Assembly (NCBI RefSeq): GCF_013003985.1 | Contig: NZ_CP053073.1 | Coordinates: forward strand, 868,001 to 932,000 | Direction of reading: 5' to 3' | From: Usitatibacter palustris | Lineage (GTDB): Bacteria; Pseudomonadota; Gammaproteobacteria; Burkholderiales; Usitatibacteraceae | DNA length: 64,000 bases | Part shown: one piece after another, positions 7,198-62,779 of the stretch | How positions within the stretch are numbered: the first letter of the stretch is position 1 | How the letters are laid out: each line of letters opens with the position of its first letter | Notes under the pieces: model-generated | The model's database searches: none | The model's input: the letters and a program-made list of their open reading frames with translations, nothing else | Told to the model about the DNA's origin: nothing | Position numbers and translations under genes: made by a program

Positions 7198-8902
7198 ATC
7201 CAATTCCAACCAGAACCTCCAGTGGCCCGGCGGCATCGTGCCCGAATGGGCCAAGGGCTCGAACAACCCGAACAATCGCCGCCGCAACAAGCAACGCGGC
7301 AAGGGCGGTAATCGCGGCGGTGGTGGCGGCGGCGGTGGCGGCCAGGGCGGCGGCAAGCGTGAACGCCTGCAGAAAGTCATGGCGCAATCGGGCCACGGCT
7401 CGCGTCGCAACATCGAGATCCTGATCGCGCAGGGCCACATCACCATCAACGGCCAGGTCGCGAAGTTGGGCGACCTCGTGGGCCCCGGCGACAAGGTGAA
7501 GCTCGACAGCCACGCGATCACGCTGCGCTTCGGCGAAACGCTTCCGCAGGTGCTCCTCTATCACAAGCCCGAAGGCGAGATCGTCACGCGCGACGACCCG
7601 CAGGGCCGCGCCACGGTCTTCGAAAAACTGCCGCGCGTGCAGGGCGGTCGCTGGGTGTCGGTCGGAAGGCTGGACCTCAACACCGGCGGCCTGCTCATCT
7701 TCACGACCGACGGCGAGCTCGCCAACCGGCTCATGCATCCGCGCTTCGAAGTCGAGCGCGAGTACGCGGTGCGGCTGCTGGGCGAGATGACCGACGAATG
7801 CCGCGAGAAGCTGCTCGCGGGCATCGACATCGAGGGCGACCTCTGCAAGTTCGAATCGGTCGAGGACCGCGGCGGCGACGGCGCCAACAAGTGGTACCAC
7901 GTCGTCATCAAGGAAGGCCGCAACCGCGAAGTGCGCAAGATGTGCGAAGCCGTGGGCCTCACGGTGAGCCGCCTGCTGCGCGTGCGTTACGGTCCCGTTC
8001 ACATGCCCGCGTTCCTGAAGCGCGGGATGATGCGCCCGCTCGAGGAGCAGGAAGTCGAAACGCTGCTCGCGTTCGCCGGCATGAACAACGCCGCGGAGTC
8101 CGAAGCGGGTGAGACGCAGGAAGACGACGAGGAGGACAAGTTCATCCCGCGCGCGATCGAAGTCGAAGCCGATCTCGATCCCGAGGATCCGCCGCAGCCG
8201 ATCGATCCGCGCCAGGCGCAGCCGCACCAGCATCACGGCAATCACCAGCAGCAGCCGCGCAACCCGAACCAGCCGCCACGCAATCGCGGACAGGGTGGCC
8301 AGGGCGGCCAAGGCGGCGGCCAGGGCGAAGCCGGCAATCGCCAGGGCAAGGGCGGCGGCAAGCGCGGCAAGCATCGCAACAAGCCGCACGGACAGGGCGG
8401 GCAACCGGGCCCGCAGGGACAGGGACGCCAGGGCCAGCCCCGCGGCCAGCAGGGTCAGCAGAATCGCCCGCGCCACCAGGCTCCGCAGGTCCAGGCTCCG
8501 GAGATCGAACCCGGCAACCGGGCCGAGCCGGCGCCGCCCCCGCCGGTGGAGACGCCTCCCACCATCCTCAGGGCCGATCCGGGCCAATACATCGACAACG
8601 GCTTCGATTCGGGCAGCCAGAAGCTTCGCGGCGACGATCGCGGCAACCGGTCTCCGCAAGGCGGCCAGGGTCAAGGCCACGGCCGGGGCCAGGGTCAGGG
8701 CCAGCAGCCGGGCAATCCGGGCCAGAAGAAGCGCGGTCCGCGCGGCAAGCAGCGCCACCGCGGCGCGCGCGGCGGCGACGAGCAACCGCGCTACATCCCG
8801 CCCAAGGGCGATGAGCAGCCGCGCTACGTGGAACCGGCGAAGAAGGAAAACGATCGAGGCGACGAGCAGCCGCTCACCAACGAGAACCGCCGCGTCTGGT
8901 AG
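7187..8902 (+). CDS. rluB: 23S rRNA pseudouridine synthase RluB with long disordered tail
   Basis: 571 residues. An Arg/Gly N-terminus (30-56, including an unbroken run of nine Gly) precedes an S4 RNA-binding domain (about 57-105) and an RsuA/RluB catalytic domain with GRLDLNTGGLLIF, catalytic Asp163. The core ends near residue 298. The remaining ~270 residues are Gly/Gln/Asn/Pro/Arg-rich low complexity with repeated GQ/GGQ steps and the motif DEQPRY repeated near the end. RluB modifies U2605 of 23S rRNA. Long tails occur in betaproteobacterial RluB, but this one is nearly half the protein. It is the last gene of the operon. Confidence 0.93.
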   Translation: MRDRSNSNQNLQWPGGIVPEWAKGSNNPNNRRRNKQRGKGGNRGGGGGGGGGQGGGKRERLQKVMAQSGHGSRRNIEILIAQGHITINGQVAKLGDLVGPGDKVKLDSHAITLRFGETLPQVLLYHKPEGEIVTRDDPQGRATVFEKLPRVQGGRWVSVGRLDLNTGGLLIFTTDGELANRLMHPRFEVEREYAVRLLGEMTDECREKLLAGIDIEGDLCKFESVEDRGGDGANKWYHVVIKEGRNREVRKMCEAVGLTVSRLLRVRYGPVHMPAFLKRGMMRPLEEQEVETLLAFAGMNNAAESEAGETQEDDEEDKFIPRAIEVEADLDPEDPPQPIDPRQAQPHQHHGNHQQQPRNPNQPPRNRGQGGQGGQGGGQGEAGNRQGKGGGKRGKHRNKPHGQGGQPGPQGQGRQGQPRGQQGQQNRPRHQAPQVQAPEIEPGNRAEPAPPPPVETPPTILRADPGQYIDNGFDSGSQKLRGDDRGNRSPQGGQGQGHGRGQGQGQQPGNPGQKKRGPRGKQRHRGARGGDEQPRYIPPKGDEQPRYVEPAKKENDRGDEQPLTNENRRVW

Positions 8903-8903
8903 G

Positions 8904-8932
8904 AAATAAGTGGGGTCTGACCCCACTTATTT
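8904..8932. repeat. short palindromic element (mini copy), likely bidirectional terminator
   Basis: Perfect 14-bp arms (AAATAAGTGGGGTC and its complement) flank a single central base. The arms equal the outer ends of the 104-105-bp palindromes at 40196 and 62675, so this looks like a copy without the inner part. It lies between the converging rluB and hypothetical genes, one base after the rluB stop and overlapping the minus-strand stop by two bases. As RNA it would form a strong hairpin followed by U-rich sequence in both directions. Confidence 0.85.
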
Positions 8933-9506
8933 ACCAGGAAGAGTAGGACTTGAGCTTCTTGATGCGCACGTAGCCGTCCTCGATGACGACGTCGATCGTG
9001 CTGTTGGCCTTCTCCGTCCCGGAGCGCTCGAGGATCTTCCACTTCTCGGTGGAGTCGCACTGCAGCGCCATGTCGGTGAGGTAGGTCTCGGTCGCCTTGC
9101 AGTTGCGCTCGACCTTGTAGTGGTCGACCGCGTGCAGCGCGTTGACGAGGATGTCCGACCACTTCTTGCGGTCGAGGATCTGGCGGGGCCGGCTCGCGCT
9201 GATCAGCTCCACTTGCACTTCCTTCGACAGGAACGTGACCGCCGTGAGCGGGTCCTTCGAGGACATTGCGATGTCGTGGCGGCGGATCGTTTCCTTGGCA
9301 TTGGCCTCCGAGATCGCGCTCGCCCGCAGCGGCACGTTGGTCTTCGAGACCGGCTTCGAGGTGCATGGCTCCTTCTGGATCATGCGGGTCTCGTGGTCGT
9401 CGACGCAGAGGTACTCCCGGTCGGACTTGGGCTCCTGGGCCCAGGCGGTGCAGGCGCCGGCCAGCGCCGCGAAGGCCGCGACGCGAAAGTAGTTCGACAA
9501 GCTCAT
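8931..9506 (-). CDS. hypothetical exported protein, 191 aa
   Basis: Not recognised. It has a signal peptide (about residues 1-23, ending CTAWAQ) and then a soluble region with four further Cys (EYLCVDD, KEPCTSK, ERNCKAT, ALQCDS), compatible with two disulfides in the periplasm. The middle is helical and rich in Lys and Glu. Its start overlaps the stop of the LysR gene (ATGA), so it is probably co-transcribed with it. Its stop codon is formed partly by the palindromic element at 8904-8932. Confidence 0.75.
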   Translation of the reverse strand: MSLSNYFRVAAFAALAGACTAWAQEPKSDREYLCVDDHETRMIQKEPCTSKPVSKTNVPLRASAISEANAKETIRRHDIAMSSKDPLTAVTFLSKEVQVELISASRPRQILDRKKWSDILVNALHAVDHYKVERNCKATETYLTDMALQCDSTEKWKILERSGTEKANSTIDVVIEDGYVRIKKLKSYSSW

Positions 9507-39688: not shown

Positions 39689-40197
39689 CGCGTCGCTGGC
39701 TCGCGGCCGTCGGCCTGCTGTTCGCGGCGACGTTCGCCTTGGCGCAGTACCAAGGCCCGGGCGGCGGCGGCCGAGGGGACAAGTCGCGCATTCCTCCGGG
39801 GAAGACGCGCGAGGATCCCACCAACCCCCGGCTGCGCGGCGTTCCCGATCCGATGATCGCCATCGAGCGCGAGCTGCCGTCGCTCGCGACGGACCTGAAC
39901 CTCGCACCCGAGCAGAAGGGACTGTGGCGCGCGTTCGAGCGATCCGTGCGTGATGTCGCGGAGCTCTCTCGCCAGCGCACGAAGAAGCTCACGGCGGAGC
40001 GGCCGCTCGACGCGCCCGCACCTGCGGCGGCGGCCATCCTTTCGGCGCTCGCCGACGATGACCGCATCCGTTCCGAAGCGATGGTCGATGTGATGACCTG
40101 CCTCAAGGCCGTGCAGGAAACGATGACGCCGACGCAGCGCTCGATGTTCGACCGGCGCGTGCATCTCGCGCTGTCGGAGCCGCTCGGGATGCAGTAA
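39685..40197 (+). CDS. exported Spy/CpxP-like (LTXXQ) protein
   Basis: 170 residues. A signal peptide (MTRRWLAAVGLLFAATFALAQ), a Gly-rich linker, then a helical domain with LNLAPEQKGLWRAFE and MTPTQRSMFDRRV, echoing the LTxxQ repeats of Spy/CpxP periplasmic chaperones. The call is moderate because the motifs are degenerate. Its TAA stop uses the first two bases of the palindromic element at 40196. Confidence 0.75.
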   Translation: MTRRWLAAVGLLFAATFALAQYQGPGGGGRGDKSRIPPGKTREDPTNPRLRGVPDPMIAIERELPSLATDLNLAPEQKGLWRAFERSVRDVAELSRQRTKKLTAERPLDAPAPAAAAILSALADDDRIRSEAMVDVMTCLKAVQETMTPTQRSMFDRRVHLALSEPLGMQ

Positions 40198-40299
40198 ATA
40201 AGTGGGGTCAGACTCGACTTAATTTGATTCTGGGGATAACTGGAGCCCGACCCAGTTGTCCCCAGAATCAAATTAAGTCGAGTCTGACCCCACTTATTT
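40196..40299. repeat. 104-bp palindromic element between convergent genes
   Basis: Two 48-bp arms, identical except for one base, flank an 8-base loop (AGCCCGAC). The outer end is AAATAAGTGGGGTC, followed by an A/T-rich inner part. It fills exactly the gap between the Spy-like gene (stop codon overlaps by 2 bases) and glnD (stop abuts at 40300). A copy lies at 62675-62779 and a short form at 8904-8932. As RNA it would fold into a very long hairpin with U-rich ends, so it can act as a two-way terminator. It resembles REP/MITE-type dispersed repeats; no transposase is nearby. Confidence 0.92.
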
Positions 40300-42903
40300 C
40301 TAGGCGGAGACGATCTTCTCGAGGGAGGCCGCGATCCGCGCGCGGCCTTCGGGCGTTCCCAGCGCGGCGCCATTCATCACGAACGCATCCTCGGCGCGCG
40401 CGCCCAGCGTGGTGACGCGCGCGTCGATGAGGTTGAGCTCCTGCAGGTGCAGCTCGCGTGCGAGTGCGAGCAGCAGGCCCGGGCGGTCCGCGCAGCTCAC
40501 CGTGATCATCCAGCGGCCGGGGCGGCGATCCGGAGTGATCGTCACCTTCGGTTCGATCGGGAAGTGCTTCACCCAGCGTGAGACGCGTCCCGGGGAGGAA
40601 GACTCGGGCGGCCCTCCCGCGGCGATGCGCGCGACGAGGCCCGATTCGATCTTCTGCATGAGGTCGCGGTAATGCTCGCCAGTGGCGCGCGAGCGGGGCA
40701 GCACCTGGAAGCTGTCGAGCGCGAACCCGTGCGAGGTCGTGTAGATCTTCGCGGCGGCGACGTCGAACTGCATGCGCTCGAAGAAGCTGGTGATGCGCGC
40801 GAACACGCCGGGTTGGTCGGCGGCGTAGACCATCACCTGCAGGCCTTCCCCGATCGGCGACAGGCGCGCTCGCACGATCGGTGCATCCGGCGTCACGCGC
40901 GACCAGAGCGTGCGCGTGTGCCAGCCGATCTCGTTCGCCTCGAAGCGCTGGAAGTAGTGGTCGTCGAGCTGCTTCCAGAAATTCTCGTGGCGCCCCGGAT
41001 CGGGCACGTACTGCTGGAAGATCCGCAGCGCCTCGTCCTTCTTGCCCGCGACCCACGAATCCGCGAAGTCGGCTTCGCCGCGAAGCACGCGGCGCGTGAT
41101 CTTGAAGAGGTCCTCGAGCAGCTTGCCCTTCCACGCATTCCACACCGCGGGACTCGTGCCGCGGATGTCGGCGACGGTGAGGATGTAGATCGCGGTGAGC
41201 GTGCGTTCGTCCTTCACGAGGGTCGCGAACTGCGAGATCACTTCCGGGTCCGAGATGTCCTGCTTCTGCGCGGTGGCCGACATGACGAGGTGCTGCTCGA
41301 CGAGCCACGTGACCAGATCGATGTCGGGCTTCGAGAGGCCGTGTTCCTTGCAGAACCGCGCCGCGTCGCGCATGCCGAGCGTCGAGTGATCGCCGCCGCG
41401 CCCCTTCGCGATGTCATGGAAGAGGGCGGCGAGGTAGAGGACTTCGGGCCGGGCGAACTCCTGCATGAGCTGCGACAGGAACGGGTACTCGTGGTCGAAC
41501 TTCCTCCGCGCGAAGCGCCGCAGGTTCCGCAGCACCATGAGGATGTGCTCGTCCACGGTGTAGACGTGGAAGAGGTCGTGCTGCATCTGGCCCACGATGC
41601 GGCCGAACGCGGGAAGGTAGCGGCCGAGCACGCCGTAGCGGCTCATCCGGCGTAGCGTCCACGTCAGGCGGTCGGAGCGCAGGATCTCCATGAAGAGCCG
41701 GCGGTTCTCGGGCTCCTCGCGGAATGACCGGTCGATGCGCGGCAAGGCCCTGGAGAGCGCGCGCAGCGTGTTGGCGGCGAGGCCCGCGATCTTGCGATCG
41801 TCCTGCAGCTTGCGGAATGTCTCGAAGATCTTGCCGGGCGAACGCTCGAAGAGGTCTTCGTCGCGAAGGGCCAGCGTGAAATTCGCGACCTCGAAGTCCT
41901 CGTCGATCTGCGTGACCTTGCGCTCGGACGCGGGCGTCACGTGGTCGAACAGGTTCGCGAGCAGGATCTGGTTGAAGCGCCAGATCGCCTTGGCCGCGAG
42001 GTAGTAGCGGCGCATCAGCAGGTCCGAGGGCGCCATCGCGCCCTTGCCCTTCAGCTTGAGCTGGCGCGCGATCTCGATCTGGTGATCGAAGACGATGCGG
42101 TCCTCGCGCCGGCCCGCGAGGTAGTGCAAGCGGATGCGAAGGTCGGTCTGCACGCGCTCGTTGATCGTGATGCTGGCCGCTTCGCGCGGCGTGATGATGC
42201 CCGCGGCCGCGAGCTCCTTCCACGATTGCCCCAGGCCCGCCGCGCGCGCGAGCCACAGCACCATCTGCAGGTCGCGCAGCCCTCCGGGGCTCTCCTTGAT
42301 GTTGGGCTCGAGGTTGTAGGCCGCATCCTGGAAGCGTTCATGGCGGCGCTTCTGCTCCTGGAACTTCGCCTCGAAGAACGCGCGCACGCTGCGCTGCTCG
42401 CGCAATCGCGTGTCGAGCGTGCGCATCAGCTCGGGATCACCCGCGATCTGGCGCGATTCGATCAGGCTCGTATCGACCGTCACGTCCTTCGCGGCTTCCT
42501 CGACGCATTCGGCGATCGTGCGCACGCTGTGGCCCGGCTCGAGGCCGCAATCCCAGAGCATGCCCACGAAGCGTTCGACCGCCGCGTCGGCCGTGCGGCC
42601 GTCGGGCAGCAGGACGAGGACATCGACGTCCGAGTGCGGAAAAAGCATGCCGCGGCCGTAGCCACCCACCCCGACGAGCGAGAGCGTGGGATCCGAGATG
42701 CATTCGGACCAGATGCGTTGCAGCAGGAGGTCAACGAAGGTGGCGTGCGCGGCGAGCAGGCGCTGCGGGTCGCCCCGGCGGAAGAATTTTTCGCGCAGCT
42801 CTTCGCGGCGCGCCTTGATCCAGCCACGCAGCTCGACCGGGGTGCTGCCCGCGCCGGTGCGCGGGGTGCGCGCCCGGGCGGGGGCGGCCGCCGAATCGCT
42901 CAT
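40300..42903 (-). CDS. glnD: PII uridylyltransferase / uridylyl-removing enzyme
   Basis: 867 residues. Nucleotidyltransferase domain with GGYGRGMLFPHSDVDVLVLL (about 79-98), a GlnD-specific linker (SPGGLRDLQMVLWLAR), HD hydrolase domain with ALFHDIAKGRGGDH near 490-503, and two C-terminal ACT domains (about 684 and 791 onward). It senses glutamine and uridylylates or deuridylylates PII proteins. It follows map by 16 bases on the same strand. Its TAG stop abuts the palindromic element. Confidence 0.96.
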   Translation of the reverse strand: MSDSAAAPARARTPRTGAGSTPVELRGWIKARREELREKFFRRGDPQRLLAAHATFVDLLLQRIWSECISDPTLSLVGVGGYGRGMLFPHSDVDVLVLLPDGRTADAAVERFVGMLWDCGLEPGHSVRTIAECVEEAAKDVTVDTSLIESRQIAGDPELMRTLDTRLREQRSVRAFFEAKFQEQKRRHERFQDAAYNLEPNIKESPGGLRDLQMVLWLARAAGLGQSWKELAAAGIITPREAASITINERVQTDLRIRLHYLAGRREDRIVFDHQIEIARQLKLKGKGAMAPSDLLMRRYYLAAKAIWRFNQILLANLFDHVTPASERKVTQIDEDFEVANFTLALRDEDLFERSPGKIFETFRKLQDDRKIAGLAANTLRALSRALPRIDRSFREEPENRRLFMEILRSDRLTWTLRRMSRYGVLGRYLPAFGRIVGQMQHDLFHVYTVDEHILMVLRNLRRFARRKFDHEYPFLSQLMQEFARPEVLYLAALFHDIAKGRGGDHSTLGMRDAARFCKEHGLSKPDIDLVTWLVEQHLVMSATAQKQDISDPEVISQFATLVKDERTLTAIYILTVADIRGTSPAVWNAWKGKLLEDLFKITRRVLRGEADFADSWVAGKKDEALRIFQQYVPDPGRHENFWKQLDDHYFQRFEANEIGWHTRTLWSRVTPDAPIVRARLSPIGEGLQVMVYAADQPGVFARITSFFERMQFDVAAAKIYTTSHGFALDSFQVLPRSRATGEHYRDLMQKIESGLVARIAAGGPPESSSPGRVSRWVKHFPIEPKVTITPDRRPGRWMITVSCADRPGLLLALARELHLQELNLIDARVTTLGARAEDAFVMNGAALGTPEGRARIAASLEKIVSA

Positions 42904-55548: not shown

Positions 55549-55647
55549 TGTCATCCTGAGGGTCGCAGACCCGAAGGACCTGCTTGAGTGTTTTAATTGT
55601 TAAACCCCTCAAGCAGGTCCTTCGTCGCTTCGCTCCTCAGGATGACA
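55549..55647. repeat. 99-bp inverted-repeat element between fabZ and lpxA
   Basis: Outer arms TGTCATCCTGAG / CTCAGGATGACA (12 bp) and inner arms of 17 bp (CGAAGGACCTGCTTGAG and complement at 55572-55588 and 55608-55624) around an A/T-rich loop. The arms are separated by unmatched segments that can form side hairpins. Similar 'GTCATCCTGAG...GAAGGACCTGC' repeats are scattered in many bacterial genomes, from general knowledge. Inside an operon, it may act as a partial terminator or RNA-processing site. Confidence 0.85.
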
Positions 55648-58228: not shown

Positions 58229-59025
58229 TGAAGGCCATCACCTCGCGCGACAACGCCGGCTACAAGGCGATGGCGAAGCTCGTCGCCAGCACCGCGGAAC
58301 GCAAGCGCCGCGCGCTTTCGGTGCTCGAGGGCGCGCACCTCGTTGCCGCGTTCCTCGATTCGGGCCGCGAGCTCGACTCGCTGATGGTGAGCCGTTCGGC
58401 GCTCGAACGCGCCGAGGTCGCCGCGCTCGCCGACCGCGCGCACCCGGCCGCCGTCACGGTGATTTCGGACGCGCTCTTTGACGCGCTCTCGACGCTCGAC
58501 TCGGCCACGGGCGTGATTGCCGCCGCACCCACGCCCGAAGGCGTGGCGGTCCCTGCGAATGCAAGCCTCGTCGTGCTGCTCGAGGACGTGCAGGATCCGG
58601 GCAACGTCGGCACGCTTTTGCGCAGTGCCGCGGCCGTCGGCGCGGGCCACGTGATGCTCTCGAAGACCTGCGCCTTCGCCTGGTCGCTCAAGGTGATCCG
58701 CGCGGGCGTGGGGGCGCACTTCGCGCTCAACATCGTCGAGGACGCGGACCTCGCGGCCTGGCTCGCGGCGTTTCGCGGCAAGTCGGTGGCACTCGCGGGC
58801 GGCGCGAAGGAATCGATCTACGACCTGGACCTCACAGGCCCCCTCGCGATCATCGTCGGCAACGAAGGCGCGGGCGTGAGCGAATCGCTGATGCGCGCCG
58901 CCACGAAGCGCGCTCGCATTCCGATGCCGGGACGCATGGAATCGCTCAACGCCGGAGTCGCGGGTTCGGTTGCCCTCTTCGAGGCGCTGAGGCAAAGGCA
59001 ATCATCCGCAGATAAACGCGGATAA
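58228..59025 (+). CDS. TrmH/SpoU-family RNA 2'-O-methyltransferase; C-terminus encoded by a repeat
   Basis: 265 residues. ITSRDNAGYKAMAKLVAS (substrate-binding domain), VLLEDVQDPGNVGTLLRSAAAVGA, LAIIVGNEGAGVSESL and IPMPGRMESLNAGVAGSVALFEALRQRQ are the SpoU motifs 1-3 forming the trefoil-knot SAM site. The target RNA is unknown (RlmB-like rRNA is possible). The domain ends at 'ALRQRQ'; the last residues (SSADKRG) and stop come from the dispersed repeat at 59005, suggesting the original end was overwritten. Confidence 0.93.
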   Translation: MKAITSRDNAGYKAMAKLVASTAERKRRALSVLEGAHLVAAFLDSGRELDSLMVSRSALERAEVAALADRAHPAAVTVISDALFDALSTLDSATGVIAAAPTPEGVAVPANASLVVLLEDVQDPGNVGTLLRSAAAVGAGHVMLSKTCAFAWSLKVIRAGVGAHFALNIVEDADLAAWLAAFRGKSVALAGGAKESIYDLDLTGPLAIIVGNEGAGVSESLMRAATKRARIPMPGRMESLNAGVAGSVALFEALRQRQSSADKRG

Positions 59026-59144
59026 ACGCAGATGAAAGGCGATGGAAGAATGGAGCTCATCGATTCTGCGTTCGGCTTCGAGTCATCCATGTACCATTTG
59101 CCCGTCGTTGCCCTTATCTGCGTTTATCCGCGTTTATCTGCGGA
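59005..59144. repeat. MITE-like element with 31-bp terminal inverted repeats
   Basis: A direct copy of the 32-bp repeat (59005-59036) and an inverted copy (59114-59144) flank 77 bases of unique sequence (59037-59113) that contains no gene. The inner ends (AAAGGC / GCCCTT) also partly pair. It starts inside the 3' end of the TrmH-family gene. No target-site duplication is clear. It could fold into a long hairpin and end transcription of the rpsB operon. Confidence 0.88.
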
Positions 59145-59187
59145 TCCAACGCCTTAACAAGTAACAAACGAGTCGGAGACCACCTCG

Positions 59188-60408: not shown

Positions 60409-62673
60409 GTGCACCCCTCAGATGACAGGATCCGGACCGTGAAATCGCCCTCCGCCGCCCGGCGCGTCGCCGCGCTGGCACTGCTTGCCCTGTGCGCCGC
60501 AACCGCGCTCGCGCAAACCCCTCCGCCCGCCCGTCCGAAGATCGGCCTCGTGCTCGGTGGAGGCGGCGCCCGCGGCTCCGCGCACATGGGCATCCTCGAG
60601 GTGCTCGAGGAGAACCGCATCGTGGTCGATTGCGTCGCCGGCACCAGCATGGGGGCGCTCGTGGCGGGCGCGTACGTGGCCGGTGTTGCGCCTGCCGAGA
60701 TGAAGGAGCTCATCCGCAAGACCGACTGGGCCGCGATCTTCGACGACAGCGCCGGGCGCGACCTCGTGAACCTGCGCAGGAAGCAGCTCGACGACCGCTT
60801 CTTCTCGGGACTGGAATTCGGCGTGGGCAAGGACGGCATGCGCTACCGCGAAGGCGCGATCGCCGGCGAGAAGATCAAGCTCTTCTTCAACCAGCTCGTC
60901 CGCGTGGATCTGGGCGAGCGCTCCATCGAAGAGCTGCCGCTGCCGCTCACGCTGATCGCGACCGACATCGGCACGGGCGAGCGCGTGGCGATTCGCTCCG
61001 GGAACCTCACCTCGGCCATGCGCGCGAGCATGTCGGTGCCCGGTGCGCTGGCCCCCGTGACGCGCGAAGGCCGCAAGCTCGTCGACGGCGGGCTCGTGGA
61101 CAACGTACCCATCGGCGAAGTACGCGAGCGCTGCAACGCCGACGTAGTGATCGCCGTGAACGTGGGCTCGCCGATGATGAAGCCCGACGAAGTGACCGGC
61201 GTGCTGAGCGTGGTGGGGCAGATGGTGAACCTGCTCGCCGAGCAGAACGTCGCCCGTTCGCTCGAGCTGCTGCGCCCGCAGGACATCTACATCCGTCCCG
61301 AGCTCGGCGACCTCACGGCCGCGGACTTCGGCCGCCAGATGGAAGGTGCGGAGATGGGGCGCAAGGCCGCCCTGCAGGTCATCGACCGCCTGAAGAAACT
61401 TTCCTCGCCGCCGCACGTGTATCGCGATTGGCGCGCGAGCGTGCGCTTCACGGCGCCGGCGCAGTCGCCGACGATCGACGAAGTCCAGATCGGCGACACG
61501 CGCTTCGTGAACCCGGATTCCATCAAGGCGGGTGTGCGCTCGGAAGTCGGCAAGCCGCTCGATGCGAAGGCGCTTGCCCATGACCTCGTGTGGGTCTACA
61601 GCCAGGGCGACTTGCAGGGCCTCGACTACTCCGTAGCGCGCGAGCGCGACAAGACGATCCTGCGCATCACGCCCGTGGAGAAACCGTGGGGTCCGGACTA
61701 CGTGCGCTTCGGCCTCAACTTCGCCTCCGACTTCGAGAGCGAGGCCGACTACAACATCCGCGCCCTCTACCGTCAGACCTGGCTCAACAAGCTGGGCGGC
61801 GAGTGGCTCGTGGGCGCGCAGCTGGGCAGCGAGCAGCTCCTGGCCACCGAGCTGTACCAGCCGCTCGACTACCGGCAGCTCACGTTCGTGCGGCCCTACG
61901 TGAGCACGCAGATGTCCAAGTTCGGCCTCTACCTCGACGGCGATCGCGTGGCCGAATACCGGACCCGCGAATCGCACATCGGTCTGGACGCCGGGGTGAA
62001 CCTGGGCATCTACGGGCAGGCGAAGGCGGGCTACATCTGGCGCAAGGGGAAGTCGAAGCTCGACACGGGCCTCTCGATCTTCCCGAACGTGGGCGAGGAC
62101 GTGAGCGGCATCATGGCGAGCGTCAATCTCGACACGCAGGACCAGGCGTTCTTCCCGACGCGCGGCTATCGCGCCACGCTCGATTACTTCAACGCGCGCA
62201 AGACGGCCGTGAACGGCGTCGAGGACGACGACTTCAAGCCCTACTGGCGCACCGAGGGCGGCGGGGAGATTGCCCTCAGCAAGGGCGACTTCACGCTCGT
62301 CGCCGCGGCCCAGGCCGGCAAGGTCTCTTCCTCCGACGTTCCGTTGAGCGACATCTTCACGCTGGGCGGGCCGCGCCGTCTCTCGGGGTTCGCCAACGGC
62401 CAGATCCTGGGCTCGGAGTACACCTACGGACGCCTCGAAGGACAGTGGCGCCTCACCAAGCCGATGCCGCTGATCGGCCTCAACCTGATCGCCGGCGCGA
62501 TGATCGAAGCGGGGCGGATGAAGGATCCGATCAACGAGCCGAACCTGAAGGGCTGGCAGAACTCGTTCGGCGCATACATCGCGGCCAATACATTCTTCGG
62601 TCCGGTGTACCTCGGTTACGGCGACTCCACCAACGGCAAGAGCCGGATCTACCTGTTCATCGGAACGCCGTAA
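60409..62673 (+). CDS. patatin-like phospholipase fused to an outer-membrane beta-barrel
   Basis: 754 residues. Signal region (about 13-36), patatin domain with GGGGARGSAH (oxyanion), GTSMG (catalytic Ser80) and VDGGLVDNVP (Asp226), a POTRA-like domain (about 355-415), and a C-terminal barrel with DTQDQAFFPTRGYRATLDY and SEYTYGRLEGQWRL. This is the PlpD-type (type Vd) architecture, where the barrel anchors or exports the lipase. The usual C-terminal aromatic is near the end (YLFIGTP). Start GTG at 60409 or 60439. Confidence 0.9.
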   Translation: MHPSDDRIRTVKSPSAARRVAALALLALCAATALAQTPPPARPKIGLVLGGGGARGSAHMGILEVLEENRIVVDCVAGTSMGALVAGAYVAGVAPAEMKELIRKTDWAAIFDDSAGRDLVNLRRKQLDDRFFSGLEFGVGKDGMRYREGAIAGEKIKLFFNQLVRVDLGERSIEELPLPLTLIATDIGTGERVAIRSGNLTSAMRASMSVPGALAPVTREGRKLVDGGLVDNVPIGEVRERCNADVVIAVNVGSPMMKPDEVTGVLSVVGQMVNLLAEQNVARSLELLRPQDIYIRPELGDLTAADFGRQMEGAEMGRKAALQVIDRLKKLSSPPHVYRDWRASVRFTAPAQSPTIDEVQIGDTRFVNPDSIKAGVRSEVGKPLDAKALAHDLVWVYSQGDLQGLDYSVARERDKTILRITPVEKPWGPDYVRFGLNFASDFESEADYNIRALYRQTWLNKLGGEWLVGAQLGSEQLLATELYQPLDYRQLTFVRPYVSTQMSKFGLYLDGDRVAEYRTRESHIGLDAGVNLGIYGQAKAGYIWRKGKSKLDTGLSIFPNVGEDVSGIMASVNLDTQDQAFFPTRGYRATLDYFNARKTAVNGVEDDDFKPYWRTEGGGEIALSKGDFTLVAAAQAGKVSSSDVPLSDIFTLGGPRRLSGFANGQILGSEYTYGRLEGQWRLTKPMPLIGLNLIAGAMIEAGRMKDPINEPNLKGWQNSFGAYIAANTFFGPVYLGYGDSTNGKSRIYLFIGTP

Positions 62674-62674
62674 A

Positions 62675-62779
62675 AAATAAGTGGGGTCAGACTCGACTTA
62701 ATTTAATTCTGTGGATAACTGGGGTCAGGCTCCAGTTATCCACAGAATTAAATTAAGTCGAGTCTGACCCCACTTATTT
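62675..62779. repeat. 105-bp palindromic element, second full copy
   Basis: Two perfect 48-bp arms flank a 9-base loop (GGTCAGGCT). The outer 29 bases match the copy at 40196; the inner part differs in a few places (AATTCTGTGG here, GATTCTGGGG there), but both arms changed together, so the pairing is kept. It begins one base after the patatin gene stop, and the DUF2007 stop codon on the other strand (62774-62776) is inside it. Confidence 0.93.

Follow-up and report, generated by a model that had tools for sequence, protein, structure and literature searches.

Stop-flush palindromes of Usitatibacter palustris as probable non-autonomous relatives of a RAYT-type transposase element

The palindromes that lie flush with gene stop codons in the analysed stretch of Usitatibacter palustris DNA (the window, 64,000 nucleotides) are probably MITE-like, non-autonomous copies of the terminal inverted repeats (TIRs) of a RAYT/TIRYT-type transposase element, and their placement at stops would result from a compact genome combined with selection. 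We put the probability of this reading at about 0.7. It is based on ends shared with a transposase element, multi-copy spread, near absence from congeners, concerted change of the two arms and location at gene 3' ends. A stop-flush palindrome family is thereby linked to its likely mobiliser, and one compact genome with its congeners shows how mobile DNA may spread without breaking genes.

Palindromes in the window and their families in the genome

The original prediction placed three copies in the window, each between convergent genes, with three of the six flanking stop codons using element bases. All of this was confirmed, with exact agreement for the distances to the six stops (1, -2, -2, 0, 1 and -6; Table 1). 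The arms of the 104 bp copy (40196-40243 and 40252-40299, 48 nt each, with 8 nt in between) are 98% complementary, and the 48 nt arms of the 105 bp copy are 100% complementary. As single strands both long copies fold at about -88 kcal/mol (-88.3 kcal/mol, z -21, for 40196-40299). The AAATAA end had been proposed to offer a ready stop codon, and it is used as such, for example by the DUF2007 gene. Two further long inverted repeats in the window, 55549-55647 and 59004-59145 (TGTCATCCTGAGGGTCGCAGACCC.. and ATCCGCAGATAAACGCGGATAAACGCAGAT), are unrelated to the stop-flush palindromes.

Table 1. Window copies of the palindrome and the stop codons that flank them (distances in bp from gene end to element, negative values meaning overlap)
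Feature	Position	Strand	Distance	Remark
Single-hairpin form, 29 bp, AAATAAGTGGGGTCTGACCCCACTTATTT	8904-8932	.		outer palindrome only
TAG stop, RluB-type pseudouridine synthase gene	8900-8902	+	+1	gene end 8902; 1 nt 5' of element
TAA stop, minus-strand ORF	8931-8933	-	-2	gene end 8931; overlaps final two element bases
Family-A element, 104 bp	40196-40299	.		near-perfect palindrome
TAA stop, LTXXQ-family ORF	40195-40197	+	-2	gene end 40197; final two A are first two element bases
TAG stop, GlnD gene (40300-42903)	40300-40302	-	0	gene end 40300; abuts element directly
Family-A element, 105 bp	62675-62779	.		arms 62675-62722 and 62732-62779
TAA stop, patatin/Omp85 gene	62671-62673	+	+1	gene end 62673; 1 nt 5' of element
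TAA stop, DUF2007 gene	62774-62776	-	-6	codon within element end (element TAA)

The repeat family itself is real. In the host genome, a single contig of 3.96 Mb (G000:C1), the exact sequence AAATAAGTGGGGTC has 25 matches and the reversed pattern none, so that AAATAAGTGGGGTC is not a chance sequence; the core GGGGTCAGAC occurs 73 times. Counts given here rest on pattern searches and selected genome stretches, and the analysis set consists of 72 elements in four related palindrome families with the core GGGGTCAGAC or GGGGAC[AT]GTCCCC. Family A measures about 104 bp, family B (AAAATAGAGGGGTCAGACCACTCTAT..) 62-71 bp, and family C is formed mostly by single 29-bp palindromes such as AAATTAATGGGGTCAGACCCCATTAATTT. 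Family D (GGGGAC[AT]GTCCCC) has 58 palindromic sites, often as two hairpins 24 bp apart. Two REP-like units in inverted orientation form one hairpin in these elements, the arrangement by which REPINs are defined. The ends of family A read AAATAAGTGGGG and bear no tetranucleotide tag GTAG at the foot of the palindrome. There are 37 family-A end matches in this genome, and relatives with two mismatches were found in just 2 of 40 other genomes searched. Given that hardly any other of the 41 genomes searched contains family A, its spread was probably recent. A literature search for the motif returned unrelated papers only.

Some copies deviate from the common structure. Two 165-bp elements, at G000:C1:1438352-1438516 with A-type ends and at 2742008-2742173 with B-type ends, share a different middle, CCCTGT(A/G)AAAAAA..GGTCCATTGGATCACC, which suggests that middles were exchanged or that another palindrome is nested. 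At G000:C1:1005515, 2226468, 2800044 and 799121 the first 2-7 bases of the unique flanks beyond the element are also palindromic (e.g. CTAGTGC..GCACTAG). Insertion into short palindromes already present was considered, but flank complementarity of at least 12 matches was seen in 9.7% of cases versus 1.9% in the shuffled expectation, a slight excess in too few cases (n=31).

A candidate mobiliser and the concerted evolution of arms

The genome contains three Y1_Tnp genes of RAYT type, each bounded by inverted repeats. Their products match PF01797 with 49-51 bits and conserve the HUH (HxH) and tyrosine motifs; their best NCBIfam match is NF047646, REP-associated tyrosine transposase, with 67-71 bits, under the cut-off of 80. 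Pfam finds only Y1_Tnp in these transposases, and no C-terminal helix-turn-helix (Bac_DnaA_C, HTH_23, HTH_28) was matched. One of the genes, at 1608670, is present in a single copy outside the window, within the element G000:C1:1608548-1609388. The inverted ends of this element (CAATAAGTGGGGTCAGACTCCACTTAAGTAACTTCTGTGGATAA, 44 nt of which 42 match) and the arms of the window elements are homologous. The other two genes, at 581689 and 2734584, are located between B-like ends (AAAGTAGAGGGGTCAGATCCCTCTAC) and between D ends, respectively, and the B-like and D palindromes that bound them also exist as dispersed copies. Relatives of these transposases, mostly from Burkholderiales, are usually also found between inverted repeats (GGGGTCAGA). 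From this comparison of ends, the window palindromes are best read as non-autonomous copies of the 1608548-1609388 element, and they are probably mobilised by a transposase gene located elsewhere in the genome. The family-D transposase frame (L027:1423-2121, G000:C1:2734584 region) enters its own right TIR, which encodes the last residues of the protein (KKGTVPISEKGTVPFI).

The two arms within one family-A copy evolve together. Among 16 family-A copies standard pairs make up 98.8% of the paired cells, and both-sided changes are present at eleven positions, 25 cells in all, next to just one G-U intermediate; it is this two-sided change, nearly without intermediates, that establishes the co-evolution. 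Strong selection on the structure would produce this, as would the copying of one arm onto the other, and the near absence of intermediates favours the latter. Hairpin-templated correction of arms is made testable by these two-sided changes.

The sequence TTATCCACA, a perfect DnaA-box consensus, is present in 10 of the 16 family-A copies (in the window at 62710-62718 and its mirror) and at both ends of the 1608548-1609388 element (e.g. G000:C1:1608583-1608591). In the other six, 40196-40299 included, it is replaced by TTATCCCCA. Recognition as a DnaA box was considered and set aside: TTATCCACA is absent from the TIRs of about 20 related transposases, and Pfam detected no DnaA domain.

Placement of the palindromes at gene ends

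Genes were called on selected stretches with a home-made codon-score caller, with corrections from Pfam or from orthologs at the sites checked; the caller erred in a few places (733213R, 3500797 and 2798877). When palindromes and stop distances were tabulated genome-wide, among the GGGGACWGTCCCC matches listed, at least one gene stop was located at -8 to +3 in 54 of the 72 elements. Convergent placement holds for the window copies, but many of the copies elsewhere in the genome have tandem genes as neighbours. These tandem copies keep the stop association: the upstream stop is within -8 to +3 of the element in 17 of 20 tandem pairs (P=4e-7), as against 7.4 expected from uniform placement in tandem pairs with room to test, a model that ignores downstream promoter and ribosome-site constraints. 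No tandem copy of the 20 lies 3 bp or less from the downstream start. Since tandem copies hug the upstream stop and not the downstream start, the gene-end association is real and extends beyond convergent pairs. Between convergent genes a flush position is for the most part to be expected, because element-free convergent neighbours already have a median spacer of 2 bp (n=15, selected stretches) and those in the window include spacers of 0, -4 and -38. The proposal that the placement is too regular for random intergenic insertion is therefore only partly right and was overstated for convergent pairs.

In families A, B and C the element's own stop ends 27 of 63 gene 3' ends, a further 21 have a stop at -4 to +3, and four genes enter the element in other frames. 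The excess of in-frame stops supplied by AAATAA or AAATAG (27 versus 4 in other frames) suggests selection for harmless insertions, although the 27 include native stops at about the same place, so that the frame test is not pure. Family D, whose ends lack a stop, has 26 of 40 stops at -4 to +3 and none at -5 to -8. Several proteins are shorter than their congener counterparts and are ended by the element stop (1438352R, 1531687L/R and 2418441R); the congener genes corresponding to 1438352 have a 4-bp tail-to-tail overlap. Because of this in-frame excess, the compact convergent spacers and the C-terminally truncated proteins, stop placement most likely results from the great compactness of the genome together with selection among insertions. 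The following sequence of events can be envisaged. The 1608548-1609388 transposase would move the palindromes in trans, possibly by a single-strand route as in IS200/IS605 relatives. Insertions within genes or near starts would be lost, while those at 3' ends would persist when they land at a native stop, or when the terminal AAATAA or AAATAG replaces that stop in frame. A transposition bias toward gene ends may contribute.

Such a bias could also be the whole cause, the transposase inserting beside stop codons or gene ends so that the mechanism of insertion itself sets the flush placement, either through a TGA/TAG/TAA-like target or through single strands exposed at transcript ends. The hugging of upstream stops by tandem copies belongs to several families and argues for this. 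Family D, despite having no stop in its ends, is mostly located 0-2 bp after TGA, TAG or TAA. Moreover, the stop before the element is kept at the same codon in congeners at 799121, 2284222, 1917221, 733213, 2869210 and 1547054. Elements thus placed 0-3 bp after congener-conserved stops, some of them in tandem spacers of 50-140 bp, are poorly explained by selection alone, and it is this placement in longer tandem spacers that keeps targeting in consideration. On the other hand, nearly random sequence flanks the A, B and C ends, where a G at -1, present in roughly half, is a weak signal and there is no consensus that could be a conserved target sequence; insertions several codons inside genes do occur, given an in-frame element stop; and the spacers between convergent genes are short in any case. 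A target duplication was not observed, empty sites being available only in congeners whose spacers are too diverged for rigorous comparison. We consider choice of target by the transposase rather unlikely. Of the idea that the element targets gene ends, then, the 3'-end association survives, while targeting is not established given the in-frame excess, the compact spacers and the truncated proteins. Transposition assays could distinguish targeted insertion from selection, a test for which the in-frame excess provides the handle.

A bolder version, which we find doubtful, is that TIRYT-type elements of several families and genera prefer stop codons and have evolved stop-tipped ends (AAATAA, AAATAG, TAATTGGGG) that make insertion harmless. 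If true, stop targeting and stop-tipped ends would be a self-taming strategy common to these families and genera. 

In the genome of Ramlibacter paludis (L113) a well-scoring ORF ends on the leading TAA of the element in 6 of 11 elements (TAATTGGGGTCAGA..), one of the six being an end of a transposase element. Judged from these reading frames, stop supply by element ends is not confined to one genus, because the Ramlibacter paludis elements also end ORFs.

It is improbable that the elements are retained for a function between genes, as bidirectional terminators or as stabilisers of mRNA 3' ends. Such roles have been proposed for REPs in other bacteria (Di Nocera et al. 2013, PMC3733652), and hairpins of -88 kcal/mol downstream of coding regions are very stable. 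The hairpin itself is the sole positive evidence for termination, however: a search for the intrinsic-terminator signature, a GC-rich stem followed by a T-tract, gave no match at 40196-40299, and in several convergent pairs that lack an element the spacer is 0 or negative, leaving no room for a hairpin. The two-way terminator originally proposed is thus unsupported. There is also no sign of need in the congeners. In five of them a palindrome is located at -7 to +10 of 21 of 143 sampled stops (about 14%), and orthologous junctions are no richer in palindromes than other stops (12 of 78 versus 9 of 65; Fisher P=0.82), so that the notion of hot junctions was rejected as well. Other palindromes do occur at the same orthologous congener stops (e.g. 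1917221, 2869210, 1009973 and 2759932). In two congeners (G005 and G002; L190 and L255) GTCATTCCCGCGAAGGCGGGAATCC palindromes lie directly after orthologous gene stops; they resemble the published CGTC REP type. Finally, that compactness makes any insertion between convergent genes stop-flush, leaving nothing further to explain, agrees with the 2 bp median spacer but is hardly probable, as tandem copies cluster at the stop instead of the start and the element stop is in frame far above one time in three.

Relation to known bacterial repeats

Bacterial MITEs such as NEMIS, RUP, ERIC and Nezha are short, non-coding, gene-adjacent elements with inverted repeats that are moved in trans. The palindromes described here are similar in that they have terminal inverted repeats in common with an autonomous transposase element, but their presumed mobiliser is an HUH/Y1 enzyme. 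IS200/IS605 elements have subterminal hairpins, no terminal inverted repeats and a fixed target tetranucleotide 5' of the left end, whereas here long TIRs are present and the flank is not fixed.

Like REPINs (Bertels and Rainey 2011, PMC3116915), the elements are non-autonomous, fold two palindromic units of inverted orientation into one hairpin, and are tied to a single-copy RAYT gene; unlike them, they lack the GTAG tag, have long TIR ends like those of the transposase element, and number tens of copies instead of hundreds. Besides the TIRtrons discussed below, subclass 2.1 of TnpA_REP as described by Quentin et al. 2018 (PMC6006769), who assigned subclasses with their own profiles and a tree, is among the closest known counterparts. 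According to Di Nocera et al. (PMC3733652), GTAG REPs lie mostly less than 20 bp from convergent ORF 3' ends, in tandem pairs are near the upstream stop, and often provide a TAG stop with their GTAG ends. The palindromes share the convergent 3'-end and upstream-stop placement and the supply of stops, but their terminal sequence is AAATAA or AAATAG. Stop supply by GTAG REPs is thus already published, and showing it for TIR families, in this genome as in Ramlibacter, is a modest novelty; a limited literature search did not find stop supply by TIR/TIRYT families reported with numbers and with several families per genome.

The same paper describes TIRtrons, or TIRYT (TIR-associated tyrosine transposases), with the TIR consensus GGGGWSAS, which is represented here by GGGGTCAG in families A and B and by GGGGACAG in D. 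Common to both systems are a RAYT-like Y1 gene between long inverted repeats carrying this motif, and TIRs that are also dispersed, singly and in pairs, some of them self-complementary. The present case differs in that a single genome holds four related families, that the 104-bp double palindromes are near-perfect, and that the elements show a systematic placement at stop codons that the available part of PMC3733652 reports for GTAG REPs and not for TIR families. By its arrangement the element appears to be of the TIRtron/TIRYT type, a new representative among known bacterial repeats and not a dedicated terminator.
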